A stretch of DNA of 64,000 nucleotides from assembly GCF_001902635.1 (NCBI RefSeq), contig NZ_MJAO01000004.1:62001-126000 (forward strand), written 5' to 3'. Position numbers and translations under genes: made by a program. Under the pieces are notes generated by a model that was not told where the DNA came from, did no database searches, and saw nothing but the letters and a program-made list of their open reading frames with translations. The DNA comes from Serratia marcescens (GTDB taxonomy: Bacteria; Pseudomonadota; Gammaproteobacteria; Enterobacterales; Enterobacteriaceae). Positions 18,593 through 36,069 of this stretch are shown here, piece after piece (positions within the stretch are counted from its first letter, which is position 1; each line of letters begins with the position of its first letter).

Positions 18593-19162
18593 ATGCTTTT
18601 CAATTACGCATTTCTTGCAATCGGATTGCTGTGGATCATTTCTGAATCATGCATTGGCGCAACAAAAAATGCGAATTCAGATTCTGCAAATATAAAAGAC
18701 AAAGGCTCGGTCAGGTTGCTTAATGTGGTGACCTATAGCGCCCTCTTGCTTGCCTTTTGGATTAACACCTTAAAACTCCCTCGCTTTGCAAAGCCGGATG
18801 ACATTATATCCTGGTGCGGCCTGTTCATTATTATCCTCGGCCTGACGTTGCGCTGGTGCGCCATTTTGAAGCTGAAGAAATATTTTACGGTAAACGTCGC
18901 CATTTTGCATGACCACCAGTTATTGACCAGCGGGTTGTACCGCTACATCAGGCACCCTGCGTATTTGGGGGTGATCGTTGCCTTCGGCGGCATGGGGCTG
19001 GCCCTGGGAAGTTACCTGGCGATGGCTGTGCTGGTCGTTCCGGTGACGCTGGCTTTTCTTTGGCGCATCCGCATTGAAGAACGGGTTCTGCTCGCGGCTT
19101 TCCCTGAGTCCTATCGGTCGTATCAAAGAAACAGCTGGCGTTTGATTCCTCTTGTTATTTGA
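18593..19162 (+). CDS. Isoprenylcysteine carboxyl methyltransferase-like membrane protein
   Basis: A 189-residue integral membrane protein with about five hydrophobic segments. The C-terminal half carries the ICMT/phospholipid-methyltransferase signature: HQLLTSGLYRYIRHPAYLGV and a distal RIRIEERVLLAAFPESYRSY, which bind S-adenosylmethionine. Members methylate carboxyl groups or lipid head groups at membranes. First gene of the 19-gene run; a role in methylating a lipid-like product is inferred. Its 5' part is AT-rich, unlike the surrounding genome. Confidence 0.82.
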   Translation: MLFNYAFLAIGLLWIISESCIGATKNANSDSANIKDKGSVRLLNVVTYSALLLAFWINTLKLPRFAKPDDIISWCGLFIIILGLTLRWCAILKLKKYFTVNVAILHDHQLLTSGLYRYIRHPAYLGVIVAFGGMGLALGSYLAMAVLVVPVTLAFLWRIRIEERVLLAAFPESYRSYQRNSWRLIPLVI

Positions 19163-19176
19163 AAGGAACAATTACC

Positions 19177-19458
19177 GTGCACCCTGAAAATGAATATGTG
19201 GTTGCGGCAAGGAGAGCCAGAAAGAAGCTGGCATTTTACTTTCACTTCTTTATCTATTTAATTGTAAATATTCTATTGCTAACGATTAACCTGATACAGG
19301 GCGGGAAGCTTTGGTTCTTCTACCCGTTATTGGGGTGGCTGTTAGGGATATTGATTCACGCCTTCTTTACTTTTTCAAATCTGCATGCGCGTTGCTGGCG
19401 AAAAATGGTCGAGAAGGAAATTAACGCACTTGAGAAAAGTAAGAACATAAGGAGATAA
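19177..19458 (+). CDS. Small 2TM-domain membrane protein
   Basis: A 93-residue protein with two hydrophobic helices (FYFHFFIYLIVNILLLTI and FYPLLGWLLGILIHAFF) and basic ends, matching the 2TM domain family. GTG 19177 is preferred because GAAAGGAA lies about 8 bases upstream; a TTG at 19159 overlapping the previous stop is possible. Function unknown. It sits between the methyltransferase and the ACP, so may anchor or recruit cluster enzymes. Confidence 0.75.
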   Translation: MHPENEYVVAARRARKKLAFYFHFFIYLIVNILLLTINLIQGGKLWFFYPLLGWLLGILIHAFFTFSNLHARCWRKMVEKEINALEKSKNIRR

Positions 19459-19462
19459 CGCG

Positions 19463-19708
19463 ATGACTACACCAACGGCTTTGGAACAACTGTGTGAAGA
19501 AGTGGCCAAGATTTTAAAGGTAAACACGGTCGATGCAGATTGCCCACTGGGTCAATTAGGCATTGATTCATTAAATGTGGTTGAGTTAATCCTGGCTTGC
19601 CAGTTGATCTACCCGAACGTGATGGATTTCGACGATCTCAGCTTTGACGAACACTCTACGCTGCGGGAGATCGATAGCCGCATGATGGAAAGCAGCGTTA
19701 CGGTCTGA
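19463..19708 (+). CDS. Acyl carrier protein
   Basis: An 81-residue carrier protein with the phosphopantetheine attachment serine in LGIDSLNVVE (Ser36). Helix and loop spacing match stand-alone ACPs. It is the likely tether for intermediates made by the AMP ligase (26912), PLP decarboxylase (28424), the KAS III-like proteins and the dehydrogenases. AAGGAG lies just upstream. It is not the fatty-acid AcpP, which differs strongly and is encoded in the fab cluster. Confidence 0.92.
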   Translation: MTTPTALEQLCEEVAKILKVNTVDADCPLGQLGIDSLNVVELILACQLIYPNVMDFDDLSFDEHSTLREIDSRMMESSVTV

Positions 19709-19715
19709 GGTCATT

Positions 19716-20492
19716 ATGCAAACTATCGCAAAGAAAAAGGTCGGGTTTATCGTAGTGAGGGTGTTGCTCATTACGTTTGTCGTGGGCAATGCCATTGCCT
19801 GGCTGTCCGGCGCCAAACCCATTGATTTCCCCAAGTTGCCTTATGCGGCGGCTGACCAGACTGCCGTCAAGCAACTGGAAAGCACCCCGATGGGGGAGAT
19901 GTCCAGCGAACACGCACAGAGCCTGGGCATGCACTATTTCCTGCACAATCACCTGGAGGAGGCGCATCAGATCCTCCAAAGCGCATTGAACAGGGATGAG
20001 AGCAATGCTTCCTTGCAGGCGTTGAAGGCGGCAAATGACGTTAAGCGCGCGGGAGAGCGTCTGGATCTGCTGTTCGGTCAGATCAAGCTTTATGACCTGA
20101 AGCAGGCGCTGCACACACTAAAATCGGTGTCTGACGCTTTGCCTGAGCAGTTGGATATCCAACTTTTGGCGCTGTGGGCGTTTACCTCGGTTCCCGATAT
20201 CAATGACAGCGCGCAAAATGCCGTCGTTATTGCCAAACGCATCGAGCCGATACTGAATGCCGAGCAGTCGATGCCGCAGGCGCTGTCCGCCTCCAGCTGG
20301 TTGGCGATGGCGAGATTGTATCTGCACATGGCTGAATCGGCAGACGGCGCCACTCCAGCTGCGAGCTGGCAGCTGCAAGCCAGGAACGCTTGGCAACATT
20401 ACCAGGCGCTGAAGAACCCGCCGATCTGGTTGGAGCGGGAGAGCGCGGTGGTTGCGCAGGGCATTGCCGGGTTACCCGATGTTAAAGCCTGA
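19716..20492 (+). CDS. Membrane-anchored helical-repeat protein
   Basis: A 258-residue protein with an N-terminal membrane segment (residues 9-30, VGFIVVRVLLITFVVGNAIA) and an alpha-helical body with TPR-like spacing (LGMHYFLHNHLEEAHQILQS, NRDESNASLQALKAANDVKR). The body would face the periplasm. No catalytic motif is seen. It lies between the ACP and the ABC ATPase, overlapping the latter by 14 bases, so it probably helps assemble the export machinery; that role is inference. Confidence 0.72.
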   Translation: MQTIAKKKVGFIVVRVLLITFVVGNAIAWLSGAKPIDFPKLPYAAADQTAVKQLESTPMGEMSSEHAQSLGMHYFLHNHLEEAHQILQSALNRDESNASLQALKAANDVKRAGERLDLLFGQIKLYDLKQALHTLKSVSDALPEQLDIQLLALWAFTSVPDINDSAQNAVVIAKRIEPILNAEQSMPQALSASSWLAMARLYLHMAESADGATPAASWQLQARNAWQHYQALKNPPIWLERESAVVAQGIAGLPDVKA

Positions 20493-21171
20493 CAGCATGG
20501 AAATCGCAGTGGCCGAGCGGGTGGGGAAGCACTATCAGCGTGGCGACGTGCGCGTTGAGGCGCTGCAGTCAGTTTCTTTCTCATTGCGTCAAGGCGAGTT
20601 TCTGATTATCACCGGTGAAAGCGGCAGCGGAAAAAGCACCTTGCTGAATCTGTGCGGTGCGCTGGATGTGCCGGACACCGGGGTATTGCGGCTGTTTGGC
20701 CAGGATGTCGGCACGTTAAGCGATAACGAGCTGTCGCGGCTGCGAAAAGAAAAGATCGGGTTCATTTTCCAGGATTTTCACCTCATACCGGTATTAACGG
20801 CGCAGGAAAATGTCCGCTACGCCTTGGACATTCGTCACAGCGCCAACGCCGGCAAGAAAGCCCAGGCGCTGCTGGCCTCCGTCGGTTTGGCAGATAAATG
20901 CCAGGCCTTGGTGACCGAACTGTCGGGGGGGCAAATGCAACGGGTGGCGATAGCCAGAGCGTTGGCCGGTTCGCCGGCCTTGATTGTTGCCGATGAGCCG
21001 ACCGCTAACCTGGATAGCAAAAACAAAGCTATCGTAATGACGTTGCTTAAAAATTTGTGCCGTGAACGGAATGTCGCCGTGGTGCTTGTGACTCATGACC
21101 GCTCTTTGGTCAGTTGGGCGGATCGGGTGCTGGTCATGCAGGATGGGAAGGAGTGTGGCAAAGATGAATAG
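20479..21171 (+). CDS. LolD/MacB-type ABC transporter ATPase
   Basis: A 230-residue ATPase with Walker A GESGSGKST (46-54), signature LSGGQMQR, Walker B LIVADEPT and H-loop VTHD, in the LolD/MacB/FtsE class that works by mechanotransmission rather than channel transport. It overlaps the preceding gene; ATG 20479 is chosen, with ATG 20497 an alternative and no clear ribosome site. Its permease is the FtsX-type protein at 22771. Confidence 0.9.
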   Translation: MLKPDSMEIAVAERVGKHYQRGDVRVEALQSVSFSLRQGEFLIITGESGSGKSTLLNLCGALDVPDTGVLRLFGQDVGTLSDNELSRLRKEKIGFIFQDFHLIPVLTAQENVRYALDIRHSANAGKKAQALLASVGLADKCQALVTELSGGQMQRVAIARALAGSPALIVADEPTANLDSKNKAIVMTLLKNLCRERNVAVVLVTHDRSLVSWADRVLVMQDGKECGKDE

Positions 21172-21844
21172 GTTCTTTTGCGCGTTAGGTTTGCTGTGTT
21201 TTTCCTTTCTGAGTTACGGGCAAAACGCCGTCTTGTACCCAACGGCCATTCCCGATTCGGAGCAGGAACAGCGGGCGTTGAAGCAACAGCTGTTGTCGAC
21301 GCCGGCGGCGCAACGCACTCAGCAACAGTGGCGGCAACTGGCCATCGTCAGCATTTCATTGATTGATAATGCCGACGCGCCCGAGGTAAAAGAGGCGACG
21401 GCGGTTTTGCACCAGGCACTGACGATGTATCCTCAGGACGCTGAGCTTATGGCCGTTCAGGGGAGCCTGTTTTGCATTCAGGCAGGCAGCCGCAATATTG
21501 ATGGCATGCAAGCCATGACCTTGGCGAATAAGGGATTCCGCCAGTTGGACCGGGCTGTGATTATGGCGCCTGATTGGCTGGGGCCGCGTTTACAACGTGC
21601 GATCACCGCCAGCCGAGCGCCGGTTTTTCTCGGCAAGCGCCCGCTGGCGCGGGAAGATTTCACTTATCTCATAGCTGCGGTACCGGCCACCCCTGAGACG
21701 CAGGTGCTGAGGGCGATGTTGCTTTATCAATTTGGCGAGCTATCGCAGCAGGATAAGGCATTGGCCAGCTCTCTGTGGCAACAGGCGGCGGCTCTGGAAG
21801 GCGGCGTCTGGAGTGAGCGAGCCAGAGGGCGTCTGTCGCCCTGA
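21164..21844 (+). CDS. Exported TPR-like protein
   Basis: A 226-residue protein with an N-terminal signal sequence (MNRFFCALGLLCFSFLSYG) and TPR-like helices (AVLHQALTMYPQDAELMAVQ, LANKGFRQLDRAVIMAPDW). The start overlaps the ATPase stop by 8 bases. It resembles heme-lyase-type and other periplasmic TPR proteins in shape, but no specific function can be assigned. Likely part of the envelope export complex. Confidence 0.75.
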   Translation: MNRFFCALGLLCFSFLSYGQNAVLYPTAIPDSEQEQRALKQQLLSTPAAQRTQQQWRQLAIVSISLIDNADAPEVKEATAVLHQALTMYPQDAELMAVQGSLFCIQAGSRNIDGMQAMTLANKGFRQLDRAVIMAPDWLGPRLQRAITASRAPVFLGKRPLAREDFTYLIAAVPATPETQVLRAMLLYQFGELSQQDKALASSLWQQAAALEGGVWSERARGRLSP

Positions 21845-21880
21845 TATTGGAACTCGAATAATAATACGGAAGAACCGACA

Positions 21881-22774
21881 TTGATTGATTTCAACAGCTA
21901 CACCGAGCAGGCGAAGCATTACGATGAGACGATTGAAATCGTTGCCAAAATCACCGCCGGAAGCGTCGAAAATCTGAGCTATCGGTTGTATCGGCAGAGC
22001 GCCGAGCCAACTGACGTGATCATCGTTTATCACGGCGGCGGCGTTAACCGTGATGCCGGTTACGACATTCTTGCGCGTCAACTTGCCGCCTTGCAAGGCG
22101 TGGCGGTTTGCCTGGTTGATATTCGTGGGCATGGCTGTTCCGCCGGTGAACGGGGAACCGTCGAGCAGCCTGAGCGTATCTGGCGCGATGTCGATGTGAT
22201 GATGGCGGAGATGCGGCGCTATTTTCCTCAGGCGCGCCGGCATCTGTTCGGCCATTCCAGCGGCGCTGGAATGTTGCTTAATTATTTTACTCGTTATCCT
22301 TTCGAACAGCGTGCTGACAGCCTGATCATGCTGGCTCCGGAACTGGGGCCGTTCGCGGGCACGGCGCGTAATGCGGCATCGAGCTTTGCGCAAGTGCGCC
22401 AATGGCCCTTTGTCGTCAATGCCCTGAGCGGCGGGCGGTTATGCGGGCAGTTCCGCGCCGTCAAGTTGAATTTCACGCCAGAGGTGCTGGAAATGGCCCC
22501 CAGCTTTGTACGGCAATACAGCGTCAACATGGCCAATGCGCTAACGCCGCGCCACCCCGGCAAGCAGTTGGCGGAGTTGCCGGTTCCGACGTTGTTGTTG
22601 GCCGCTGCGCAGGACGAATTATTTAGTCCGCAGGCGATGCGCGACTTTGCCGGGAAGCATGGCAACGGCTGGCTTGAGTTTCGCTTTATTGAGGATAGTA
22701 CGCACCTGGACTGTGTGTTTAAGGCCCACCGTTATATCCATCAGTACATTGCCGGCGAGCGGCGGGGGGCATGA
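21881..22774 (+). CDS. Alpha/beta hydrolase (lysophospholipase-like)
   Basis: A 297-residue serine hydrolase starting with TTG. The oxyanion region is VYHGGGVNRDAG, the strand-turn DIRGHGCSAGE precedes the nucleophile elbow GHSSG (Ser126), with candidate acid Asp in AAQDELFS and His in DSTHLD. Closest in style to monoacylglycerol-lipase/lysophospholipase hydrolases. Similar hydrolases accompany ACP/ligase/decarboxylase sets in exosortase A loci. It may release or edit an ACP-bound or lipid intermediate. Confidence 0.85.
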   Translation: MIDFNSYTEQAKHYDETIEIVAKITAGSVENLSYRLYRQSAEPTDVIIVYHGGGVNRDAGYDILARQLAALQGVAVCLVDIRGHGCSAGERGTVEQPERIWRDVDVMMAEMRRYFPQARRHLFGHSSGAGMLLNYFTRYPFEQRADSLIMLAPELGPFAGTARNAASSFAQVRQWPFVVNALSGGRLCGQFRAVKLNFTPEVLEMAPSFVRQYSVNMANALTPRHPGKQLAELPVPTLLLAAAQDELFSPQAMRDFAGKHGNGWLEFRFIEDSTHLDCVFKAHRYIHQYIAGERRGA

Positions 22775-24000
22775 TGGTGCGGTTAAAGTTGGCTTTGCGA
22801 AACCTGTTTCGAAACAAAAGAAGAACGCTGGTTTCCGTCACCAATCTGGCGTTGGCATTGGCCGCAATCCTGCTGTTTTCCGGCTTTTGCGAGTCAATGT
22901 ATCAAGGGTTGCGTGAGAGTATGATCCGCTCTCAGCTTGGTCATATTCAGTTATTCAAACAAGGTTTTAATCAATTCGGCGCTTTGAGCGATGCCGGCAT
23001 GCTGCTGCCGGAACCGTTGAAAAATCGCATTGTGGCGCAGGCGCAGGCTTTGCCCGATGTAGAAATCGTTACGCCGCGGCTTGAAACCGACGTTTTAATT
23101 ACGAACGGCGATGCGCAAATGTCGTCGCATATCGTCGGGATCGATCCTGACAAGGAAGCGGTGCTGAGTTCGGCGATCCAATTGCTGCAGGGAAGCAACC
23201 TGTTTCCTGAACAGCAGGACGGCGTATTGTTGGGCGCGGCCCTGGCGAAGGCGCTGAAGGTTAAAGTGGGCGATAGCCTGACGCTGTTGGGCACGGCGGC
23301 GAACCAAACCATCAACGCGATGGACGTGACGGTGATCGGCATTGTCACCACTGGCGTGCAGGAGCGGGATCTGCGGACGGCCTACGCCAATTTGTCGTTG
23401 GTGGAGAATTTTCTCTTGAGCAAAGGGGCGACTCGCGTCGTGATTCTGCTTAACGATACGGCGAAAACCGATCGGGTATCCGGGCAGCTGCTCCACAGCT
23501 TGCAGAATGACGGTTCGGACTTTGAACTGCGCACCTGGAGCGAACTGGCTACCTATTATCATCAGGTTGTGGGCCTCTTCAGCGCCATTTTCACCTTTGT
23601 TAATGTGATCTTGCTGGTGGTCGCGGCCTTTGCCGTCTCCCATGCCCTGTCGATGAATGTGGTCGAAAGAACGCGGGAGATCGGCGTGATCAGAGCGATT
23701 GGCGCCAGCCGTAGTGAAGTCGTCGGTCTGTTCGTTATGGAAGGGGGAATGCTGGGCGTTGCGGGCGGCGTGCTGGGTGTTCTGCTGGCTTGGACGTTGG
23801 CGGCTCTGCTGAATCAATCTGGTTTGATGATGCCGACGCCACCCGGCAATACCGTGACGTATCCACTGAGAATTCTGCTTACACCGCTCATGTGTCTGTA
23901 CGCATTTGCCGCCAGCGTGTTCACTGCGTTGGTCTGTAGCGTATTGCCCGCGGCGCGGGCCGGAAAACTGATCATCATAAGAGCGCTCAACCATGCATAG
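22771..24000 (+). CDS. FtsX-type (LolE/MacB-like) ABC permease
   Basis: A 409-residue permease: an N-terminal membrane segment after RLKLALRNLFRNKRRTLVSV, a large periplasmic domain (about 45-265), then three membrane segments within the FtsX domain, including MNVVERTREIGVIRAIGASR, the signature contact with the ATPase. This is the LolC/E and MacB architecture, which extracts substrates from the inner membrane outer leaflet. ATG overlaps the upstream stop. Partner ATPase at 20479; LolA-like carrier follows directly. Confidence 0.9.
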   Translation: MMVRLKLALRNLFRNKRRTLVSVTNLALALAAILLFSGFCESMYQGLRESMIRSQLGHIQLFKQGFNQFGALSDAGMLLPEPLKNRIVAQAQALPDVEIVTPRLETDVLITNGDAQMSSHIVGIDPDKEAVLSSAIQLLQGSNLFPEQQDGVLLGAALAKALKVKVGDSLTLLGTAANQTINAMDVTVIGIVTTGVQERDLRTAYANLSLVENFLLSKGATRVVILLNDTAKTDRVSGQLLHSLQNDGSDFELRTWSELATYYHQVVGLFSAIFTFVNVILLVVAAFAVSHALSMNVVERTREIGVIRAIGASRSEVVGLFVMEGGMLGVAGGVLGVLLAWTLAALLNQSGLMMPTPPGNTVTYPLRILLTPLMCLYAFAASVFTALVCSVLPAARAGKLIIIRALNHA

Positions 24001-24763
24001 TTCAATAAGCCGACGCCGGTTAATCCAGTTGGGTGTCGCGGCGTGTTTACTGCCCGCGATGGTATTTAACGGCCAGGCGATGGCCGAACAGAAAGAGGCT
24101 CAACAGTGGTTCCGTCAACTTGGTCTGTTACGCGGCTTGCCCGGAGCCTTTAGCTTCACGCTGGACGTCACGTCTTACCGCAACGATGCGGTGGACGGTG
24201 AAAACCGTTTGGAGGTGATGTTTCAGTCTCACCAGCAGGTTTTGGTGCTGTTCCGCCAGCCCCAGAGCGCGGCCGGCCGGCGGATATTGGTCGACGGTGA
24301 CAACATGTGGCTGACCTTGCCGAGTTCACGGCGGATACTGCGGATCTCTCCGAGTCAGCGCCTGCTGGGGGAAGCGAGTAATGGGGATGTCATCAACACC
24401 AACTTTGCGGATTACGCGCTCAAGCAACAGCGCGATGTCGTAGAGAACAATGCGCGGTTCATTGAGTTGACGCTGGTGGCGCAAAGCAGCAATCAAAGCT
24501 ATCAGCGCGTGGTTTATCTGATCGATCCGGCGACGTCGTTGCCGCGTGTCAGCCGCCATTACACCGCAGCCGATAAGTTGATCAAAGAAATTCACTACGA
24601 ACGTTATGTGACGGAGCAGGGGCAGCCGCGAGTTGAGCGTATGCGCCTGGTTAATCCGATCTTCAGCGATCGCTATACCGTCATGACGTTGGGAAAATTT
24701 ACGCCTAAAGATTTTCCCGTCGGCATCTTCAAAAAAGAGAACCTGCTGAATTTGGTGATTTAG
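23993..24763 (+). CDS. LolA-like outer-membrane sorting carrier
   Basis: A 256-residue exported protein. The N-terminus ISRRRLIQLGVAACLLPAM has a twin-arginine look (SRRRLIQLG), ending near AMAEQKEA. The mature part resembles the LolA-like 'outer membrane lipoprotein-sorting' family (strands VLVLFRQPQSAAGRRILVDG, DNMWLTLPSSRRILRISPSQ, then FSDRYTVMTLGKFTPKDFP). Such proteins shuttle hydrophobic cargo across the periplasm. It overlaps the permease gene by 8 bases, so the two are coupled. Confidence 0.85.
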   Translation: MHSSISRRRLIQLGVAACLLPAMVFNGQAMAEQKEAQQWFRQLGLLRGLPGAFSFTLDVTSYRNDAVDGENRLEVMFQSHQQVLVLFRQPQSAAGRRILVDGDNMWLTLPSSRRILRISPSQRLLGEASNGDVINTNFADYALKQQRDVVENNARFIELTLVAQSSNQSYQRVVYLIDPATSLPRVSRHYTAADKLIKEIHYERYVTEQGQPRVERMRLVNPIFSDRYTVMTLGKFTPKDFPVGIFKKENLLNLVI

Positions 24764-24772
24764 GGAGCCGGC

Positions 24773-25690
24773 ATGCAGAACGAAGATGAAATTGACGATT
24801 TTCCTGTTCGGGATGGGTGTCGCATTAGCTGTCGTATCTACCGCCATGCGCAGCCACAGTCAGTGCTCTTGCTCTTGCCGGGATTTGGTTTAAGCAGCGA
24901 CGATTATATTTCATTTTGCGAGCGTCTGGTGAAAACCAGCCCGACGGTTGTCTACAGCCCTGACTTGCGAGGGCATGGGAAATCACAGGGCGCGCCGGGG
25001 GATGTCGCCTATATCGGCCAATTGCAGGATGACTTGAGCGACCTGTTGACGGCGATCAAATACCGACACCCAGGGATACCGCTGGTGTTGGCGGCCCATT
25101 CCGGCAGCAGCTCTTTGGCGATTGCCCATCTGGCTGCACGGCAGGATTCGGCGGTTCGGGCGTTATATCTGATCGCGCCGGTATTCTTTGGATACATGGA
25201 GTTTGATAGGCAGGTTAAACCCGCGTATCGCTACATTTACTATGGCCGATACCGTTGCTCGCCGCATGAAAATGTGGCTTCGCAGTTTAACGTCAATCAG
25301 CAGTTCCGCTATTCGCTGAAGCGGCACCTGATCGCGGCAGCATTGCCGTTTCAGCGCAAAATATGCGTGTTGCAGGTGCGGCGCGACGAAGAGCAGCCGT
25401 GGAAAAAATACAGTTTTCGCTTTTTGCAAAGTTACCGTTGCCCCCACCTTCAGAGCGCTTTGGAGAAGATCTCGGTGCCGGTACGGGTTTTGGTGGGCGC
25501 CGAGGATGAAGTGATGTTGCCTGATGCCGTGGTCAGCACGTTGAACTGGCATCTGGCCCCCGACATCTTACGTGAAATGCGGTGCCTCAGAGGCATGGGG
25601 CATTTCAGCATTCTGGCCGTGTCCGCTCTCTTGGTCAGCCAATGGTTGCGTATGACCATGGCTGAAATAGATGGCGAGAGACAACAGTAA
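24773..25690 (+). CDS. Second alpha/beta hydrolase
   Basis: A 305-residue serine hydrolase with LLLLPGFGLSSDDY (oxyanion strand), SPDLRGHGKSQG at 63-73 and nucleophile elbow AHSGS (Ser110; the second Gly of GxSxG is Ser). Candidate acid in VLVGAEDEVMLPD and His in GMGHFSI. Thioesterase-like roles are possible for ACP-bound products. ATG follows AGGGAGCC; 9 bases after the LolA-like gene. Confidence 0.85.
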   Translation: MQNEDEIDDFPVRDGCRISCRIYRHAQPQSVLLLLPGFGLSSDDYISFCERLVKTSPTVVYSPDLRGHGKSQGAPGDVAYIGQLQDDLSDLLTAIKYRHPGIPLVLAAHSGSSSLAIAHLAARQDSAVRALYLIAPVFFGYMEFDRQVKPAYRYIYYGRYRCSPHENVASQFNVNQQFRYSLKRHLIAAALPFQRKICVLQVRRDEEQPWKKYSFRFLQSYRCPHLQSALEKISVPVRVLVGAEDEVMLPDAVVSTLNWHLAPDILREMRCLRGMGHFSILAVSALLVSQWLRMTMAEIDGERQQ

Positions 25691-25704
25691 AAGGGGGGAG
25701 CCGC

Positions 25705-28423: not shown

Positions 28424-29575
28424 GTGACAGAGCTAATAAAAAAACTGGCTGACGGCCTGGCAGGGGGGCATTATTCTTTTGAGTCTCCGTGCTATATCTT
28501 TGATCCCAGCCTGATTAATAAGAATTTGGATGAACTTGAAGACTGCCTGGGGACTAAGGTCATTATTTCCATTAAGGCAAACCCGAATGTGGATGTGAAT
28601 TTGCGTTTGGTGCATCGTCAGGGCGGGGTGGAGGTCGCCTCATTGAAGGAGTTGAACCTGGCGGCGCATTCTGCTCAGGTTTATATCAATAATCCGTCAA
28701 TGGACAGAAACCTGATGCGTGCGGGGATTGCGGCGAATGCTTATTTCATCGTCGATACGCTGCAGCAACTCAATAGCCTGGTGGAATTGGCGGGTAAGCG
28801 GCCGCTGAAGCCGGTGATTCTGCGCTGCAACGTTGCGGTGATTGCTCAGCTGCAATCCGGAGCGCCTGTGATTCGCAAAGATCATTTCGGCATGGATTTG
28901 GAAACGCTATTCGAAGCAGTGCGTATTATTCGGCAAAGCGACAAGCTGAAGCTGCATGGATTCCATCTGTTTGCCGGCTCTCATACCTTCCTGCGTTTTG
29001 GCACTTTGGTGGCCGAAACCGCATTGTTGTTACTGCCACAGATCGAAGCGCATTACGGCGAGAAGATATCGTTGATCAATCTGGGCGGCGGTTTCGCTGA
29101 ACGCTGGTCGGAACAAACGGCAGGCTTCGAAGCCTATCGTTCTCTGCTGGCGAAGTTTCCGAGCCATGTCACGCTGGTCCATGAGGCCGGACGGGCGGTG
29201 TTTGCCTCCAGCGGCGTCTTTATGACCAAAGTGGTGGCGACCAAGCGGGTGGCCGATCAGCACTACACCATTTGCGACGGCGGCATGAATCAGAGCTTCC
29301 TGCTCTGCCAGACGGAAAACAACTTTCGGAAGTTACGCCAACCTTATCTGGTGCGCCAAAACGAAGGTGAGGCGTGCCTCCCGGCGGGCGGCGCGGAGCA
29401 TACGGTCTTAGTGGGATCGACCTGTAGCCGTGACGATGTCATCGGTCAATACGGCGACCGGAATGTGAAAGCGGGCGACATCTTCCTGTTTGACCACTGC
29501 GGCGCTTATCACAGCACGTATACCGTTAGCCGCTTCCTGGGGTTAAAGGAGGCGACGCATTATGTCATCTCATGA
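28424..29575 (+). CDS. PLP-dependent decarboxylase (DapDC fold)
   Basis: A 383-residue fold-type III decarboxylase starting with GTG after GAGGG. The PLP lysine is Lys51 in ISIKANPNVDV, the glycine-rich phosphate loop is INLGGGFAE, then HEAGRAVFASSG. The catalytic cysteine from the partner subunit is in STCSRDDV (Cys334) and the PLP tyrosine in CGAYHSTY (Tyr362). Relatives include LysA, BtrK, VinO and exosortase A-associated decarboxylases. Beside an ACP ligase it most likely decarboxylates an ACP-bound amino acid. It overlaps the next gene by 14 bases. Confidence 0.88.
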   Translation: MTELIKKLADGLAGGHYSFESPCYIFDPSLINKNLDELEDCLGTKVIISIKANPNVDVNLRLVHRQGGVEVASLKELNLAAHSAQVYINNPSMDRNLMRAGIAANAYFIVDTLQQLNSLVELAGKRPLKPVILRCNVAVIAQLQSGAPVIRKDHFGMDLETLFEAVRIIRQSDKLKLHGFHLFAGSHTFLRFGTLVAETALLLLPQIEAHYGEKISLINLGGGFAERWSEQTAGFEAYRSLLAKFPSHVTLVHEAGRAVFASSGVFMTKVVATKRVADQHYTICDGGMNQSFLLCQTENNFRKLRQPYLVRQNEGEACLPAGGAEHTVLVGSTCSRDDVIGQYGDRNVKAGDIFLFDHCGAYHSTYTVSRFLGLKEATHYVIS

Positions 29576-30623
29576 AACGTTAGCGAGTATGCATAGTTAT
29601 GGTGAATGCATCACGCGGCATTTGGCGCGGCATGTCGCGATGCCGGCGGCGACGCGCCGGTGCTTGAATGACAGCGTATTGCGTCATCTGGACTCGCGCA
29701 TGTTGATTGAAGATCCCCTGACGCCGTTGCAGCCTTTGCTAGAGGCGACCCCATTTCCTCTGCCGGCGATGGCCAGTCTGCCGGTGCTGGATGAGCATGT
29801 GGATGCCGTCGGCAGAGAGGGATTTGGCGGCCATTTCCTGAATATCATCGGCCTGTTCGGCCATATCATGCTGACGCTTGCCGGGAACGAGCGGCAGAAT
29901 GAGCAGGTCAGACAGTGGGTTGCCGAAGGGAAGCGCGGCGCATTCCTGATGACAGACGCCGGCGGTCCATCGCTTCATCAGTGGCGTTCGCAGGTTATCG
30001 GCGATGCGGCGCAAGGCAGCCGGATTACCTTGGATAAAGAGTGGGGCATCGGCGCCCTGGAATGCGAGTTCGCGATCGTCGTGTTGGCGCGTCCGGGGCA
30101 GATGATCCCCCAGGCCTATCTGTTGCCGCCTGACGCCTGCGCTCAACTGAATCGCCAATCCATAGGCGCCGCTTATCTCGACGGCCACGTTCAGCTGGGC
30201 AACTGCCAGGGGGATATGGCAAGCGATCCCGATTGGGCCTTGCGCCGTGGCGGGCTGATGGCGGTGAAACAGTTTTTGACCTTTGTGCGCCCGCGATTTG
30301 TGCGGGCGTTAATGCAACATCTGCATTGGCTGGAGGCTCAAGGCCGGTTGTCGCTTGACGAGCAGCAAAACGAGATGCGCGCCTATCTTGAGGATGTGGC
30401 GCGTCAGCTGTCTGAGCAACAGAGCTTCACCCGTTATTCCGAAGATGATGTGATGGCGCTGAAGTTCAGTTCTAACGCCTTGTTGTTCGATTTGGTCGAG
30501 AAGCAGCGCGTCCCCCAGTTGATGGATCAACGCGACCTGCTGGGATTCACAAAAATGGAGGGGAGTTCTTACCGCTGTCTGTTGGAGATTTGGCAACGCA
30601 ATCGGGGGAAGAAGCATGCATGA
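29562..30623 (+). CDS. Divergent acyl-CoA dehydrogenase-like protein
   Basis: A 353-residue protein with the acyl-CoA dehydrogenase layout: GGHFLNIIGLFGHIMLTLAG helix, an FAD-loop-like FLMTDAGGPSLHQWRSQV (compare TEPGAGSD), a beta region with DKEWGIGALECEFAIVVL, and C-terminal helices ending in MEGSSYRCLLEIW, which aligns with the EGT catalytic motif. It may thus keep a catalytic Glu, but overall similarity is low. Partner or paralogue of the enzyme at 32949. Substrate probably carrier-bound. Confidence 0.68.
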   Translation: MSSHETLASMHSYGECITRHLARHVAMPAATRRCLNDSVLRHLDSRMLIEDPLTPLQPLLEATPFPLPAMASLPVLDEHVDAVGREGFGGHFLNIIGLFGHIMLTLAGNERQNEQVRQWVAEGKRGAFLMTDAGGPSLHQWRSQVIGDAAQGSRITLDKEWGIGALECEFAIVVLARPGQMIPQAYLLPPDACAQLNRQSIGAAYLDGHVQLGNCQGDMASDPDWALRRGGLMAVKQFLTFVRPRFVRALMQHLHWLEAQGRLSLDEQQNEMRAYLEDVARQLSEQQSFTRYSEDDVMALKFSSNALLFDLVEKQRVPQLMDQRDLLGFTKMEGSSYRCLLEIWQRNRGKKHA

Positions 30624-31443
30624 GCTGCGTCTGGCCCGAGCGGCCTTTACACGTTATTCCCGCCCGCTGATCTCCACGTCGGCCGCGTTGGAGCAGCTGT
30701 CGCCCGCATTGGCGGAGGCGGTTGGGCAGCAGGTCGCCCATTGCTTGACCGGTTATGACGGCCCTGCGCCCGATCGGCACTTTCTCTGTTCCACCATCAT
30801 GGACTTGCCCTTCGCCAATCGGCTTATCGATTGGCGCACGTTGCAACAACAGATGCGTCGTTATACCGACGCCGCACCGGATACGCTGGTGAACGCGTAT
30901 GAATGCGCCAGCTGGGGATACTGCCTGCGGCAAGCGCTGATTGCACCGCAACCGGTCTCTCGCGTGATGTGCACCATTGTCGATCTCAACCTTATGGATC
31001 TCTCTTTTTGGCAGCAGAACCCCAACTGGGGCGCTTCCGGGTTTGGCATTGCGACGCTGTTGTTTAACGTCGAACCCGGTGCGGCGAAGCATCTGAATGT
31101 CGGCGTGGCGAAAAGCGCGAACTTCATCGCCGAGTTCAGCATCGCGGTGCGTCAATGTTTGGAAGACAAAGCGGCGTGCAAACTGGCCCTGCCGTTCTTT
31201 CCTGAACAGGTGACCCAGCTGTTTCAACGTTTATTGCCACAGGCCGACGCGCTGCCGGATCTTCACCCGCAGCTGGGGCACTGTTTTGGCGCCGATCCCT
31301 GGATTTCCTTAATCGAGCACGCCAAAGAGGCCAGAGACGGTCAACGGTTTTTGGCCACGTCTGTCGCGCTGAACGGCTATTGGGCGATGGCGGATGTCAG
31401 CCTTGAACCCGGCGGTGTTTATCGTTTTACGGAGGTCGGGTGA
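30616..31443 (+). CDS. KAS III-like protein, active site altered
   Basis: A 275-residue thiolase-fold protein. YECASWGYCL (Cys97) matches the nucleophile region of FabH-type ketosynthases; WGASGFGIATLLF matches the GDGAGAVVL strand; GHCFGADPW (221-229) sits where GNTGAAS should be, replacing the catalytic Asn; PFFPEQ stands where PHQAN would be, losing the His. The Cys is kept while His and Asn are altered, so an acyl-transfer or other reaction is more likely than decarboxylative condensation. Identification is by pattern reading only. Confidence 0.62.
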   Translation: MHELRLARAAFTRYSRPLISTSAALEQLSPALAEAVGQQVAHCLTGYDGPAPDRHFLCSTIMDLPFANRLIDWRTLQQQMRRYTDAAPDTLVNAYECASWGYCLRQALIAPQPVSRVMCTIVDLNLMDLSFWQQNPNWGASGFGIATLLFNVEPGAAKHLNVGVAKSANFIAEFSIAVRQCLEDKAACKLALPFFPEQVTQLFQRLLPQADALPDLHPQLGHCFGADPWISLIEHAKEARDGQRFLATSVALNGYWAMADVSLEPGGVYRFTEVG

Positions 31444-31964
31444 TGACTGACTGTCTGGCTTTTTACGGCAAGTTTTTAGGGCGTCCATTCCCTTACGGCG
31501 TCAGCCGGGCGAACGCAATGGTGTTGCCGATGGAACAGGCCGAGGATTATGAATCGCTCAGCCGGATGCCGAAGCCAATGCGCCAATCGCCGGTACTGTG
31601 CAGCTTCTCGGAAAAATACCTGTTGCTTGAACAGATCGTCATTGCGGCATTCGCCCACCTGCATTCGCTGGATCGCTGCGTCATGACGGCCATGATGCCG
31701 GGCGGCGTTCGGCTTCCGGCGCGTTTGCTGATGGAGGACGTTTTTCTGGTGCATCACGTCGATGATGAGGCCGAGCGACTGCGGCAAGGCGGGTGCAGTG
31801 TGTTGGTGATAGAAGAGTCGATCATTCGTCATCCGCTGGAGGCAGGGGACAACACCTTGCATCTGCGCTGGCTTGGCGCTGAGCAGGCAACCGCGCGCCA
31901 GGACTGGAGCGGGTTTCTGCGCGTCTTATCCGGGCTGAACATTGTGCCGGCGGGCGGAGCCTGA
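31443..31964 (+). CDS. Unrecognised 173-residue protein
   Basis: A soluble protein with no signal peptide or membrane helix. Distinctive stretches are FLGRPFPYGVSRANAMVLPM, a middle helix VIAAFAHLHSLDRCVMTAMM and HHVDDEAERLRQGGCSVLVI. I do not recognise a family. It lies between two KAS III-like genes, with TGATG coupling to the first and 2 bases to the second, so it probably forms a complex with them. ATG 31443 is used; a GTG three bases earlier is also open. Confidence 0.7.
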   Translation: MTDCLAFYGKFLGRPFPYGVSRANAMVLPMEQAEDYESLSRMPKPMRQSPVLCSFSEKYLLLEQIVIAAFAHLHSLDRCVMTAMMPGGVRLPARLLMEDVFLVHHVDDEAERLRQGGCSVLVIEESIIRHPLEAGDNTLHLRWLGAEQATARQDWSGFLRVLSGLNIVPAGGA

Positions 31965-31966
31965 CG

Positions 31967-32938
31967 ATGAACGGCGTTGCATTACATGGGATACGGCTTT
32001 TTCCCTGGGCGAAATTACGCTCTTTCCTGCCGACGTTGCCCCCACCGGGAAGCGAGCTGCCCGGCGCTGAGCTCATCCTGTTTTGCAGTTCCGGCGAGGT
32101 TGAGGTGCTGCAGCAACCTTGGGTGGTTGAATGGATGGCGAGAGAAGTGCGGCGGGGGACGGCGCCGCGACGCGCTTTTGTCTCGATGGCTTGCGCAAGC
32201 TGGTACGCCGCAGTGCTGGAGTTCATGCGGAGCGATTGCCGCAGCGCCGAGATTTGGGTCATTGAAGCCTGCGCGGATTTTATTCAGGAACGCTTGGATT
32301 GCGCGGGGCTGGGGCGAGGCGGCGAGGGATTATTGGCCAACGGCGGCGTGGCGTGCATCAGTCTGCGCAAGGGCGACGCGCGGGAAAGCGGTGTGCGTCT
32401 CGATGACTGTGCGCTGCTTTCCAAACCGGCGGGGTTACGGGGAACCGAACTGCTGATCAAACGTTATGCACAGTGGCTGTTGGCGCATCAGTGCGGAGAT
32501 GAACGCGCCGACTGGGTGTCCTTCGCCATCGAGACCCACTGGTCCAGGCAACTGCAGGCCGGTTTGGCGCTGTGGGGGAAAGACGCCATGAGAACGTTAG
32601 TCGCCCAACCGAGCCTGGAACAGGGGAAAGACCATTATATGGCGCTGAAGCCCCTGCATGAACTGGCCACTCATCTTCAGCGTCCCCTGGTTCGCCCGGT
32701 GATCCTGACCACGCTGGCCGCCGGCGGGCGAATTGGCTGCGCTATTTTTCGAGCCTGTGGAGATGATGCGGTGAACGCCGCGCCGGCGGGGGATATTTTG
32801 CCGATTCGTCTGCCCCCCGTCGCGTTGCCGAGCGGCGCCCCTCCCCGTTACTGCGAGCGGGAATACCGCTATCGCGACAACGAATATTTTCTGACTGAGC
32901 TGGATGAGTCCGGGCCAGCCTTACTGATGCATTCATAA
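31967..32938 (+). CDS. Second KAS III-like protein
   Basis: A 323-residue thiolase-fold protein. FVSMACASWYAAVLEFM (Cys76) corresponds to the ketosynthase nucleophile, FAIETHWSRQLQ (His191) may be the catalytic His helix, and GKDHYMALKPL (220-230) occupies the position of the Asn loop, again with His for Asn. The C-terminal VILTTLAAGGRIGCAIFRA resembles the terminal strand-helix of FabH. Together with the gene at 30616 it suggests a heterodimer in which one subunit keeps more of the catalytic set. Low overall similarity. Confidence 0.62.
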   Translation: MNGVALHGIRLFPWAKLRSFLPTLPPPGSELPGAELILFCSSGEVEVLQQPWVVEWMAREVRRGTAPRRAFVSMACASWYAAVLEFMRSDCRSAEIWVIEACADFIQERLDCAGLGRGGEGLLANGGVACISLRKGDARESGVRLDDCALLSKPAGLRGTELLIKRYAQWLLAHQCGDERADWVSFAIETHWSRQLQAGLALWGKDAMRTLVAQPSLEQGKDHYMALKPLHELATHLQRPLVRPVILTTLAAGGRIGCAIFRACGDDAVNAAPAGDILPIRLPPVALPSGAPPRYCEREYRYRDNEYFLTELDESGPALLMHS

Positions 32939-32948
32939 TGGAGCTTAT

Positions 32949-34760
32949 ATGAAAAACTTACCTGTTTATCGGGCGCCGTTGGCTGACATTCGTTTTGTCA
33001 TCTGGGAACAAAACCAGCTTGAAGAGAGCCTGGCCATCAACTATCCGCATCTGACGCGCGCCAGGGTTGATCGGGTGTTGGAAGAGGCTGCCGCTTTTGC
33101 ACAAGACGTGCTTGCCGACAGCTATCAGCAGGCAGACAGTCAAGAATGCTGGATGGATGAGCAGGGTAAGGTGCATGTGCCTGAGAGCTATCCGTCGTTG
33201 TTGGCCCAATTCCGGCAAACCTGGGGCGAGCGGCTGAAGCCGCAAGACCAGGGCGGATTGGGGCTGCCTCCTCTGGCGCAATATGCGGTATTGGAGATGT
33301 TTATGGGGGCTCATCCCGCCTTCATGACCTATGTCGGTTTCAATGGCCCGGCCATTCAGCTGTTGACGCGCTATGGCACGCCGGAGCAATTGGCGGAGTA
33401 CGGGCCGGCCTTATCCGAGTATCGCTGGACCTCCTGCTTATGCATCACCGAAGCAGAAGCGGGTAGCGATCTCAGCCGCCTCGTTACACAGGCTGAACGG
33501 CAAAGCGATGGCCGTTACCTGATCTCCGGGGAGAAACGCTTTATCTCGGCGGGTATGCATTCGTTGGCTGAAAACATTCTCTATTTCGTGTTGGCTCGGG
33601 TGAAAAACGGTCCGCAGGGCATGTTGGGCTTATCGTGTTTCATTGTGCCCCAGTTTGATCATGGTGCGGATAATCAGGTTCGCTGCCGTGAGGTGGTGAA
33701 GAAAATGGGCCTTAAGGGATGCGCCAATACCCATTTGCAGTTTGGTGAAAACGGGAAGTGCTACGGCTATCTGATGGGCGGGAAAGAGAACATCGGGTTG
33801 GTGCAACTGCTGAGCATGATGACCCCGGCGCGCATCAGTACGGGTATTTATGCCCTTGGGATGGCTTCCAGCGCCTATCTGAATGCGCTGGACTATGCGC
33901 AAAAACGGGTTCAAGGCAAACAGTTCGATCGGGCTATGAGCGCCAGCGCGCCTTCTCTGCCTATCATTGCGCACCCTGATATTCGCCGCATGCTGTCAAA
34001 AATGAAAGCGCAAACCGAAGGGTGCCGTGCGCTGTTGGGCAAACTGGGCATGGCGGAAACGGATTATCGCACCGCGTTACAGCGTGGGGAGCAGACGGCG
34101 GCGGAGAAACACCTGGCCTTTTTTGAACTGCTTACGCCATTGGTGAAAGCCTACTGCTCCAACGAGGCCTGGAACGTGGCGGAGAACGCTATCCAGGTGA
34201 TGGGGGGGAAAGGGTACCTTAGCGCGTATCCGGTTGAGCAATATGCGCGCGATTGCAAAGTCCTGTCGATATGGGAAGGCACCAACCATATTCAGGCGCA
34301 GTTCTTGTTGCGTGACAAGTTGGGGATGGGGCTGCGAGAAACGCACGCCTTGCGGGAGCTACGTGCGCGGCTGGATGCGTTCATCGCACAGGCGAAGTGC
34401 CAGGTTGAGCTGGCGCCGCTGACGGAGGCGTTGTTGACGGCGCAACAGGCCTTGGAGGGGAGTTTGACCGAATTGGGTGACGCCGTGCGGCAGGGGCACT
34501 TACTGAGCGTGCCGGCCTGCGCCAATGTGCTGATGGAAATGGTGGCGGAACTGATTATCGGTTGGTGCCTGGTTGAGGCGGCGTATTGCGCTCGCACCCT
34601 GACCGATCCCGTTTTGCGCGACGGGAAGCTCGCCACGGCGCGTTATTTCCTGTCTACGGTGTTGACGTTAAGCGGGGCGAAAGCGCAGCAGGTACGTTAT
34701 CTGATCCAGGCGGACAGCGTTTCCAACGTGGCCTTCTCGTGGAATACGGCTGATGCCTGA
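32949..34760 (+). CDS. Acyl-CoA dehydrogenase (large, DmdC/AidB-type)
   Basis: A 603-residue flavoprotein. FAD contacts are in SCLCITEAEAGSDLSRLVTQ and GEKRFISAGMHS; the catalytic glutamate motif is LSIWEGTNHIQAQ. Length with a C-terminal extension of about 130 residues matches acyl-CoA dehydrogenases with an added C-terminal domain. It should introduce a double bond alpha,beta to a thioester, here probably on the ACP-bound intermediate. Electron transfer flavoprotein genes are not in the window. Ten bases after the preceding gene. Confidence 0.9.
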   Translation: MKNLPVYRAPLADIRFVIWEQNQLEESLAINYPHLTRARVDRVLEEAAAFAQDVLADSYQQADSQECWMDEQGKVHVPESYPSLLAQFRQTWGERLKPQDQGGLGLPPLAQYAVLEMFMGAHPAFMTYVGFNGPAIQLLTRYGTPEQLAEYGPALSEYRWTSCLCITEAEAGSDLSRLVTQAERQSDGRYLISGEKRFISAGMHSLAENILYFVLARVKNGPQGMLGLSCFIVPQFDHGADNQVRCREVVKKMGLKGCANTHLQFGENGKCYGYLMGGKENIGLVQLLSMMTPARISTGIYALGMASSAYLNALDYAQKRVQGKQFDRAMSASAPSLPIIAHPDIRRMLSKMKAQTEGCRALLGKLGMAETDYRTALQRGEQTAAEKHLAFFELLTPLVKAYCSNEAWNVAENAIQVMGGKGYLSAYPVEQYARDCKVLSIWEGTNHIQAQFLLRDKLGMGLRETHALRELRARLDAFIAQAKCQVELAPLTEALLTAQQALEGSLTELGDAVRQGHLLSVPACANVLMEMVAELIIGWCLVEAAYCARTLTDPVLRDGKLATARYFLSTVLTLSGAKAQQVRYLIQADSVSNVAFSWNTADA

Positions 34761-36069
34761 GCGGATGATCAAAAACGCGGCTTTAGCCGCGTTTTTCGCA
34801 GCCGGAGTGACGCCGGTTTTCGCAATGGAATGGCGGCCTGAACTGCAGGCTCAAGGGCGTTACTCGCAGCAAGAGTACAATGCGGGATCCGCCCTCTCTC
34901 CCCAACGTTTTAGCTCTGCCGGCCGCGCGTTTTCGGACGTGGATGTGCTGTTTTCCCCGACGCTGATTGTCGACCAAAATCTACAGGGATTTTTGGGCGC
35001 GGCGGCGGGCTGGCAGAGGGCGGGGGGCCATGAGTCCCACAAGCTCCGGTTACTGGAGGCGGGGGCCTCACTGAGTAACGATCAACAAACGGAACGTCTT
35101 ACGCTCGGTAAAATGAAGGTGCGTTGGAGCCAGGATAGCGTCTATCACCCGCTGGATCTTTTCGGCCGGTATAACCAGCCCAAAAGCAGTCTGGGGGTTA
35201 ATGAGTTCGACGATTTTAAAAAAGAAGGCAACGTCATGGCTCGCTGGCAACGTACCGGCGACGTCCTGTCCCATGACGTTCTCTTGGTTGAGGCGGATAA
35301 CAACGCGTGGATGCCCGCCGCGCATCAGGTCGCATGGCGAGGCGTCATGCAAAGCGGAGAAAGCGAGTTTAGTCTGATTGCGGAAAAATCGGCGAACTAC
35401 CGCCCGCGCTGGGGGGCGGGGCTCAGCCAGGGGATGGGTGAGCAATGGACGTTATACGGTGAATATTTGCTCAGTCGCGATCGGGACATTCCGGTCTTAC
35501 GGCAGGTACAGCCTGAAATTCCGTTGGCGCCGGGCGTGGCGTTACCGGCGCTTTACGATTACCAGCGGGACGATAAACAGAGAAATTGGCAAAAATTATT
35601 GCTGACTTTGCGCTATTACTCCCAGGTTGGCGGCAGCGTTGAAGGCAGCCTGTTTTACAACGGCCACGGCCTCAATCGTCGCGAGTGGTCACAGTGGGAA
35701 AGCCGGCAATGGAGCGCCGCGGAAACCTTGACCGATGCTCAATTACGGCCCTACCTGGCCGGGGGGAATCCCTATATCCCCATGCTGGGCGACTCCGCCC
35801 GCCTGATGCAGGATTTTTACTTGCGCAGGTTTTATGCTTCGGTGCGCCTGGATAGCCTGGAGCGTTTTACCCAGGGGCGGATCGAAATGAATATGATCTT
35901 CGGCCTGGAAGACGGTAGCAGTTCATTGTGGATGGCGGGGGAATATCCGCTGAACGAGAAATTGCTCGTTAAACCCTACCTGATGCTGCAAAGCAACGTG
36001 CGTGGCGAAGGGCAGATGGCGCCGTTGAGCGCGTTGTTCGGGCTTAATTTTACTCTGGCGCTGCTTTAA
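34753..36069 (+). CDS. Outer-membrane beta-barrel protein
   Basis: A 438-residue exported protein with a signal sequence (MIKNAALAAFFAAGVTPVFA) and a mature part of alternating amphipathic strands rich in Trp, Tyr and Gln, ending with a hydrophobic strand and terminal leucine (FGLNFTLALL). This pattern indicates an outer-membrane barrel. It overlaps the dehydrogenase gene by 8 bases and is the last gene of the cluster. As the receiving end of the Lol-like path it could insert or secrete the product; no named family was recognised. Confidence 0.75.
   Translation: MPERMIKNAALAAFFAAGVTPVFAMEWRPELQAQGRYSQQEYNAGSALSPQRFSSAGRAFSDVDVLFSPTLIVDQNLQGFLGAAAGWQRAGGHESHKLRLLEAGASLSNDQQTERLTLGKMKVRWSQDSVYHPLDLFGRYNQPKSSLGVNEFDDFKKEGNVMARWQRTGDVLSHDVLLVEADNNAWMPAAHQVAWRGVMQSGESEFSLIAEKSANYRPRWGAGLSQGMGEQWTLYGEYLLSRDRDIPVLRQVQPEIPLAPGVALPALYDYQRDDKQRNWQKLLLTLRYYSQVGGSVEGSLFYNGHGLNRREWSQWESRQWSAAETLTDAQLRPYLAGGNPYIPMLGDSARLMQDFYLRRFYASVRLDSLERFTQGRIEMNMIFGLEDGSSSLWMAGEYPLNEKLLVKPYLMLQSNVRGEGQMAPLSALFGLNFTLALL

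Follow-up and report, generated by a model that had tools for sequence, protein, structure and literature searches.

Probable Beta-Alanine Assembly Without Condensation Domains

The afc genes of Burkholderia build AFC-BC11, an antifungal N-acyl-tetrapeptide, i.e., N-acyl-(dehydro-beta-alanine)3-dehydrolysine, and do so with aspartate-derived beta-alanine and without a normal peptide synthetase, as described in excerpts of PMC12186527. As reconstituted in vitro, AfcQ activates the side chain of aspartate (Asp) and loads it onto the carrier AfcK, AfcP then decarboxylates, and AfcQ repeats, with AfcA adding myristate and AfcL transferring the beta-alanine trimer to Lys-CoA; AfcN and AfcO also are required for AFC-BC11 (PMC12186527, in excerpt). 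The gene afcE (BCAS0208) adjoins that of a citrate synthase, BCAS0207 (PMC6301696, in excerpt). Considered here is a 19-gene cluster from a Serratia marcescens genome of 5.26 Mb (G+C 58.6%). It lies within a stretch of 64,000 nucleotides, positions 62001-126000 of contig C4, which as a whole is referred to as the window. The cluster is, as judged by homology and gene neighbourhood, a distant and rearranged relative of Burkholderia afc. An initial annotation of the window had recognised no described cluster of this make-up, a statement which no longer holds, as the core matches a named and biochemically studied pathway (afc/AFC-BC11; PMC12186527, in excerpt).

Other described systems overlap with the cluster in part. 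The ATPase, FtsX-type permease, and LolA-like carrier are as found in LolCDE/LolA, but in the window there is a single permease, no LolB is seen, and scores are below the cut-offs, at 220 of 308 bits (LolD) and 125 of 362 bits (LolCE). The VinN/VinO/VinL route feeds a polyketide synthase (PKS), whereas the cluster is without one. In that route, which supplies the starter unit of vicenistatin, decarboxylation takes place on the carrier, and the recognition residues of the ligase are as in the window (PMC7756342, in excerpt). With bolagladin (bol) of Burkholderia gladioli, much as is predicted for the window, Asp is converted to beta-alanyl on a free carrier and dehydro-beta-alanine is formed by acyl-CoA-dehydrogenase-type enzymes, with N-acylation, free of fatty acyl-AMP ligase (FAAL), proposed by its authors to occur via homologues of ketoacyl synthase III (KAS III; PMC7756342, in excerpt). 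The bol assembly feeds a modular nonribosomal peptide synthetase (NRPS), however, and the Serratia cluster has no NRPS module.

Homology to the afc Core

A search with the decarboxylase of the cluster returned proteins of 38-39% identity encoded on Burkholderia megaplasmids. Homologues of cluster genes there stand in the order LolD, FtsX, LolA, U353, carrier, U275, U174, decarboxylase, ligase, dehydrogenase (labels as in Table 1). Held in common with afc are, that is, seven core homologues, i.e., the carrier (AfcK), the Asp adenylation enzyme (AfcQ), the pyridoxal phosphate (PLP) decarboxylase (AfcP), and homologues of AfcJ, AfcL, AfcM, and AfcE, along with LolD, FtsX, and LolA-like genes. A lack of condensation domains is common to the two as well, with Pfam scans finding no such domain among the 19 cluster proteins. 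The window differs in being without AfcA, AfcN, AfcO, AfcR, and AfcS, in its gene order, and in falling within a separate branch in two trees, and it has genes which afc does not: TPR1/TPR2, Hyd2, AsnB-like, U323, ICMT, and 2TM. The letters J, K, L, M, P, and Q were assigned from gene order together with published annotations, residue numbers serving as well for K, L, and Q, and the letter E from a position before a Pfam-confirmed citrate synthase (Citrate_synt) and a methyltransferase.

Two Branches of afc-Type Clusters

Scanning genomes with U353 yielded 47 loci, 21 of them window-like, 22 afc-like, and 4 others (L033/L034, L035, and L055, the last with U353 alone recognised). Branch II, as the term is used here, consists of 22 loci, i.e., the window, a locus of Xenorhabdus kozodoii, and 20 other, mostly marine gammaproteobacterial loci. 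Branch I consists of 23 loci, including plasmid locus L012. The flanks of these loci reach approximately 10 kb from U353, so that genes lying farther off would be missed.

The carrier, TPR1, hydrolase, AsnB-like protein, U353, U275, U174, and U323 are present in 22/22 branch-II loci, and the ligase and decarboxylase in 21/22 (L060 being cut), as is LolD (21/22). TPR2 is seen in 16/22, FtsX in 13/22, and LolA in 4/22, most stretches ending there. The dehydrogenase is found in 11/22 branch-II stretches and, in a longer stretch of the L041 genome, sits beyond the export genes. The ligase-decarboxylase-U353-U275-U174-U323 block retains one order in all 21 uncut loci. As the set recurs in 21 other loci, its grouping is not a matter of chance, and the original suggestion of biosynthesis and envelope genes joined within one co-directional cluster is borne out. 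Of two findings named in advance as telling against a novel cluster, that is, genes usually separate or a set matching a known pathway, the first is contrary to what is seen, the genes usually being together, and the second describes the core, which is of a known kind.

The branches differ in content. Each uncut branch-II locus has one AMP ligase (21/22, the 22nd being cut) and every branch-I locus has at least two, AfcA-type included (23/23). A second AMP ligase, i.e., a FAAL, is found in 0/22 branch-II stretches; these counts come from listing every AMP-ligase frame, with the FAAL profile itself cross-matching branch-II ligases. Citrate synthase, as queried with Pfam Citrate_synt, is seen in 0/22 branch-II versus 23/23 branch-I loci. 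The additions of branch II are a degenerate AsnB-like protein, two TPR-like proteins, a hydrolase, and U323, with TPR1, U323, and the AsnB-like protein found in 0/23 branch-I loci.

These contents bear on whether the product might be AFC-BC11 itself, or instead a close congener with a citrate-derived acyl chain, as the core and dehydrogenases held in common could suggest. The second ligase, the citrate synthase, AurF-like AfcN, and KAS III-like AfcO nevertheless are absent from the window and from the other 21 branch-II loci. Such a congener is rejected given the missing second ligase and citrate synthase, that is, it is seen as highly improbable.

Trees of U353 (47 rows) and of the decarboxylase (46 rows) recover the same two branches, with support of 100/96 and 100/99, and both pair the window with X. 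kozodoii. Duplicates or cut sequences (L014, L015, L016, L034, and L060) are omitted from these trees, and L033 and L035 are long branches, their own placement being unsure. Branch II would seem to be a variant of an afc kind of system, the core of which already was known. If so, then Burkholderia lipopeptide chemistry extends to marine Gammaproteobacteria, to Xenorhabdus, and to one Serratia enterobacterium. Among open-access titles and abstract starts in the matches listed, no literature was found that connects afc with Serratia, with Xenorhabdus, or with bacteria of marine origin.

U353 is present in 1/30 Serratia genomes searched, its own only (0/29 others), and the decarboxylase (E 1e-30) in 3/295 genomes sampled from the order, its own included. 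That single Serratia occurrence, along with an AsnB-like protein lacking catalytic motifs, could be read as a decaying or silent island of no present function. All 19 frames are open, however, with active-site residues kept, and the AsnB-like degeneracy, extending to 22/22 members, looks ancestral, unlike decay, leaving a functionless island improbable. The AsnB-like family does match a part of the glutamine-amidotransferase domain (GATase_7, in 12/22 members at E up to 1, best 3e-12), as first labelled, but Cys2 and the SGGxDS synthetase loop each are present in 0/22. An active asparagine synthetase is rejected on those grounds, i.e., the loss of Cys2 and of the ATP loop, and the absence of both catalytic signatures throughout the family points to a structural role.

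The other 20 branch-II loci possess, instead of the Hyd1-slot gene, an approximately 650-residue flavoprotein (e.g., L019 13362-15320) which the window and Xenorhabdus are without. It is Trp_halogenase-like by Pfam in the 3 scanned, and the product of these 20 clusters may be halogenated or oxidised.

Clusters of afc type with both FAAL and citrate synthase were observed also in Chromobacterium, Pseudomonas, Trinickia, and Robbsia (L042-L044, L047-L051, L054, L057, and L064), with the citrate synthase of five Pseudomonas loci in one open frame with the dehydrogenase. L033 and L034 lie at the same positions of contigs of equal length (46,579 bases) in two soil metagenome-assembled genomes assigned to different phyla, which probably reflects duplication in binning; gene arrangement there is of a third type, in which AfcL/AfcM-like genes occur as a second set.

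Residues Held in Common With Characterised Enzymes

Arg311 and Lys503 of AfcQ are reproduced in the L036 homologue, the window equivalents being Arg290 and Lys481. Ser40 of AfcK is reproduced in the Burkholderia homologue (Ser36 in the window) and Cys111 of AfcL in the L012 homologue (Cys97 in the window), both residues being invariant across the window and 44 others. In the L036 AfcL homologue this Cys is numbered 125, as the mechanical open reading frame (ORF) starts earlier.

Asp188, Thr258, Arg290, and Lys481 of the ligase are invariant across the window, 20 branch-II, and 22 branch-I enzymes, that is, the Asp/Thr/Arg recognition trio is found in the window and in 42/42 aligned AfcQ-type enzymes. 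Ligase and decarboxylase rows are without L060 (cut), and ligase rows cover 22/23 of branch I, the L056 ligase lying in two frames, under the score limit, with its first piece having the same motif. As a control, in AfcA-type ligases the columns of the Thr and Arg are occupied by Gly and Leu (23/23), with Asp and Lys being general; an A-domain control using eight short loci of the window's own genome gave one readable motif and was not used. Against PDB profiles the ligase matches gramicidin synthase A (E 5e-51) and then 3wvn (E 6e-47), the latter being presumably VinN. The recognition residues of VinN are Asp230, Ser299, and Arg331 (PMC7756342, in excerpt). Asp188, Thr258 (hydroxyl kept), and Arg290 match these, with only the Arg column tied to a published AfcQ number, the Asp and Thr columns having been placed by spacing and motif. 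The decarboxylase aligns with AfcP over 381 columns at 39% identity, with the PLP Lys and the Cys/Asp kept.

A Proposed Route From Aspartate to Envelope

The Serratia cluster probably is a second-branch afc-type cluster, i.e., one effecting peptide-like assembly on a single free carrier, without condensation domains, and possessing a Lol-like export route. That reading is based on homology, conserved residues, and gene neighbourhood, with each chemical step in Serratia a prediction. The AfcQ-like ligase would adenylate the side-chain carboxyl of L-Asp and load the carrier, and the AfcP-like enzyme would then strip the alpha-carboxyl, giving beta-alanyl-carrier, the free amine of which may take another Asp, resulting in oligo-beta-alanine. 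N-acylation of the amine would proceed without a FAAL, and U323 or U275 would probably effect it as an acyltransferase drawing on a thioester, much as proposed for bolagladin. Dehydro-beta-alanine would arise through the dehydrogenases resembling AfcE and AfcJ, chain release would be by the U275 cysteine, by Hyd2, or by both, and the ICMT may methylate the product. LolD/FtsX would pull this product from the inner membrane, the LolA-like protein would carry it, and the outer-membrane protein would place or release it, an export suggested by domain content and linkage. An otherwise unreadable cluster is in this way given a specific prediction, that is, Asp on a carrier, beta-alanine, acylation, dehydrogenation, and Lol-like export, and the afc match supplies as well a chemistry open to testing, a class of product to expect, and a group of related clusters.

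As the cluster has no FAAL, acylation most simply would employ a thioester donor. A full-length AfcA homologue is present in 2/4 branch-II genomes tested, the window's own among them, and FAAL encoded elsewhere thus is not a general answer; for this Serratia host, help from a FAAL in trans is conceivable. In the host's genome a fatty acyl-AMP-ligase-like gene was observed near a small carrier-protein frame (C7:163926-166691), which perhaps is another lipopeptide-type locus or instead a helper in trans.

Several points weigh against this proposed route. No acyl donor was identified, and no AfcN, AfcO, or AfcR homologues were detected in branch II (window plus 21 loci). Identities to afc proteins are 21-48%, a distance at which either the substrate or the number of repeats could be different. 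The residue following the ligase pocket Asp, furthermore, is Tyr in 20/20 branch-II relatives versus Ala in 22/22 branch-I enzymes, and the exact substrate therefore could differ. As to export, direct comparison of the window's outer-membrane family with that of afc gave an hhalign probability of 0.3%. The outer-membrane protein AfcI is described as dispensable for AFC-BC11 production (PMC12186527, in excerpt), though dispensable for production is not equal to dispensable for export. Similarly, the ATP-binding cassette (ABC) transporter gene BCAS0204 is described as dispensable for antifungal activity (PMC6301696, in excerpt), this gene by position probably not being the LolD homologue. Given both of these dispensabilities, export by such genes is not established even in Burkholderia.

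Relation to Exosortase-A Systems

Of all NCBIfam models, the ligase and decarboxylase score best against two from exosortase-A systems, TIGR03098 and TIGR03099, listed by NCBIfam as hypothetical equivalogs only. The scores, 266 bits (cut-off 592) and 126 bits (cut-off 478), respectively, are both too low to pass. The product could instead be a small beta-alanine-derived tag or head group fitted to a lipid or lipoprotein of the envelope, and not a lipopeptide that is secreted, a use which would be closer to that of exosortase-A genes. A Lol-type ATPase, permease, and carrier normally handle envelope lipoproteins, which counts toward such a tag, and one hydrolase touches TIGR03100/03101, the AsnB-like protein touches TIGR03108, and the Asp trio is found in exosortase ligases as well. 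All of these exosortase-model scores are far below curated cut-offs, however, and none of the 19 cluster proteins was matched to an exosortase in Pfam/NCBIfam scans. The other genes differ too, with profiles of the carrier, both hydrolases, AsnB-like protein, U353, U275, and dehydrogenase found in 0/20 of the 3.2-4.6-kb stretches around exosortase ligases. A tag or head group is considered on the whole unlikely.

A ligase scoring above the TIGR03098 cut-off was found in 30 of 229 sampled genomes of the class, and 20 of these 30 were examined as loci (L078-L097). Asp, Arg, and the catalytic Lys are present in 20/20, the third place being Ser in 18 and Thr in 2, which suggests that exosortase-A 'acyl-CoA ligases' activate Asp and supplies a substrate hypothesis for both the ligase and decarboxylase associated with those systems. 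The decarboxylase profile is found in 16/20 of these short stretches and the carrier profile in 0/20. No open-access literature was found naming both VinN and exosortase.

The secreted, afc-type reading can be extended, though tentatively. It is possible, if rather doubtful, that branch II consists of uncharacterised, condensation-domain-free makers of N-acyl beta-peptides which do without FAAL, employ a dead asparagine-synthetase relative as scaffold, and send their lipopeptide to the outer membrane by a Lol-type ATPase, permease, and LolA-like carrier of their own. In exosortase-A systems, by this reading, the unexplained small-molecule part would be this carrier module converting Asp to beta-alanine, and three kinds of envelope-linked system would have a single chemistry in common.

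Xenorhabdus, Hyd1, and the Site of the Cluster

The X. kozodoii locus (L018) has 18 genes plus a hydrolase relic, with window order kept from 2TM through the outer-membrane protein, and an ICMT-like gene, 60% identical, on the same contig directly upstream. In its Hyd1 slot (approximately 2852-3232) is an 81-residue C-terminal match to Hyd1, at 43%.

PhnB-like, Hyd1, and yedI occur in that order without cluster genes in 8/11 related genomes, the other 3/11 stretches being too short, and in 3 of those 8 approximately 2.3 kb of other DNA separates Hyd1 from yedI. Hyd1 of the window is 69-73% identical to that of related genomes versus 87-98% among the latter. PhnB-like is 83-85% versus 96-100%, and yedI 93-94% versus 98-99%. 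These identities mark the species of the window as generally divergent, and Hyd1 may have changed by vertical descent. Cluster genes flank Hyd1 on both sides. Loss of an ancestral cluster in the other genomes, with Hyd1 left behind, may account for this, or equally the cluster may have arrived around Hyd1, with spread to or from Xenorhabdus. The idea of an island inserted between PhnB-like and yedI fits with position and patchy distribution, with the amendment that Hyd1, inside, is a resident gene and that loss elsewhere is an alternative to gain.

Layout and Labels of the Cluster

The cluster's 19 ORFs (18593-36069 of the window) are all on the + strand, adjacent frames overlapping or being separated by at most 64 bases, a run confirmed by ORF listing as first described. 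The true starts of two probably are later than those of the mechanical ORFs beginning at 20452 and 21095. A promoter scan, giving 5 sites versus 10.9 expected, was uninformative. A close relative in E. coli was rejected, there being no megablast match.

Table 1. Genes of the Serratia cluster, with positions in the window.
Gene product	Position	Strand	Supporting evidence
ICMT/PEMT-like membrane methyltransferase	18593..19162	+	Pfam ICMT E 8e-21; 60% identical protein directly upstream of Xenorhabdus cluster
2TM-domain membrane protein	19159..19458	+	Pfam 2TM E 3e-18; also in Xenorhabdus L018
Carrier protein, AfcK homologue, phosphopantetheine Ser36	19463..19708	+	Pfam PP-binding; 48% identity to Burkholderia homologue
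TPR1, membrane-anchored, TPR-like	19716..20492	+	Weak PilW similarity E 3e-4; 22/22 branch-II, 0/23 branch-I loci
LolD-like ABC ATPase	20452..21171, start probably 20482	+	TIGR02211 220.5 bits (cut-off 307.75); Walker A, LSGGQ, DEP
TPR2, exported, TPR-like	21095..21844, start probably ~21164	+	Branch-II homologues at same place
Hyd1, alpha/beta hydrolase, resident Serratia gene	21881..22774	+	PhnB-Hyd1-yedI in 8/11 related genomes, 68-72% identical; Xenorhabdus relic
FtsX/LolCE-type permease	22771..24000	+	Pfam FtsX, MacB_PCD; identity 41% to L015, 28-29% to Burkholderia afc
LolA-like periplasmic carrier	23993..24763	+	Pfam LolA_like E 3e-28; 21-23% identity to afc protein, best E 2e-10
Hyd2, alpha/beta hydrolase, candidate thioesterase/release enzyme	24773..25690	+	Pfam Hydrolase_4; Ser110, Asp245, His277 invariant with 21 branch-II relatives
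Degenerate AsnB-like protein, probably not a catalytic synthetase	25705..26847	+	Partial GATase_7; without Cys2 or SGGxDS in 22
AfcQ/VinN-type adenylating enzyme, predicted Asp side-chain carboxyl activator	26912..28387	+	Asp188, Thr258, Arg290, Lys481 invariant
AfcP-type PLP decarboxylase	28424..29575	+	39% identity to Burkholderia homologue; Lys51, Cys334, Asp338 invariant in window and 43 others
U353, AfcJ homologue, dehydrogenase-like	29562..30623	+	37-44% identity; tree
U275, AfcL homologue, predicted acyl/peptidyl transferase, Cys97	30616..31443	+	30-42% identity; Cys97 invariant in window and 44 others
U174, AfcM homologue	31440..31964	+	29% identity over 113 residues; same place after AfcL
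U323, possible acyltransferase, invariant Cys76/His223/Asn305	31967..32938	+	23-sequence alignment; 22/22 branch-II, 0/23 branch-I loci
AfcE-type acyl-carrier-protein dehydrogenase	32949..34760	+	43% identity to Burkholderia protein beside citrate synthase; Glu443 of WEG motif invariant
Putative outer-membrane protein	34753..36069	+	Signal-like N-terminus; hhalign probability 100% with branch-II protein of L015

Domain labels come from Pfam and NCBIfam scans of the 19 proteins, with Pfam matches (E 0.001) for 11/19 and none for TPR1, TPR2, the AsnB-like protein, the outer-membrane protein, U353, U275, U174, or U323. These scans back most of the labels initially given, i.e., ICMT-like, 2TM, carrier protein, LolD-like ATPase, two alpha/beta hydrolases, FtsX/MacB permease, LolA_like, AMP ligase, PLP decarboxylase, and acyl-CoA dehydrogenase. 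Corrected, besides AsnB-like, are labels for a second KAS III, a second dehydrogenase, and the barrel. Thus, of two proteins called KAS III-like, U275 is a homologue of AfcL, classed as KAS III-like by its authors, but for U323, comparisons with Pfam, with PDB profiles, and by hhalign brought out no similarity to KAS. Its Glu44, Cys76, His223, and Asn305 are invariant in 23/23 sequences, and the label, being based on the invariant Cys/His/Asn, is left open; a relationship of U323 to AfcO, AfcR, or U275 is rejected, hhalign giving no significant match. Of two acyl-CoA-dehydrogenase-like proteins, one stands, and for the second, U353, AfcJ homology is joined by a weak profile match to the PDB acyl-CoA dehydrogenase FadE3 (E 0.025). 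The putative barrel has no Pfam match, and that label is based on a signal-like N-terminus and on an hhalign connection to the afc protein that is weak and runs through a third protein (probability 55% for that of L015 versus that of Burkholderia).

The host's genome otherwise is rich in carrier domains, with 49 PP-binding matches, many in very large PKS/NRPS-type frames, and with PKS/NRPS-type regions at approximately 88-169 kb of C2 and 225-249 kb of C7.

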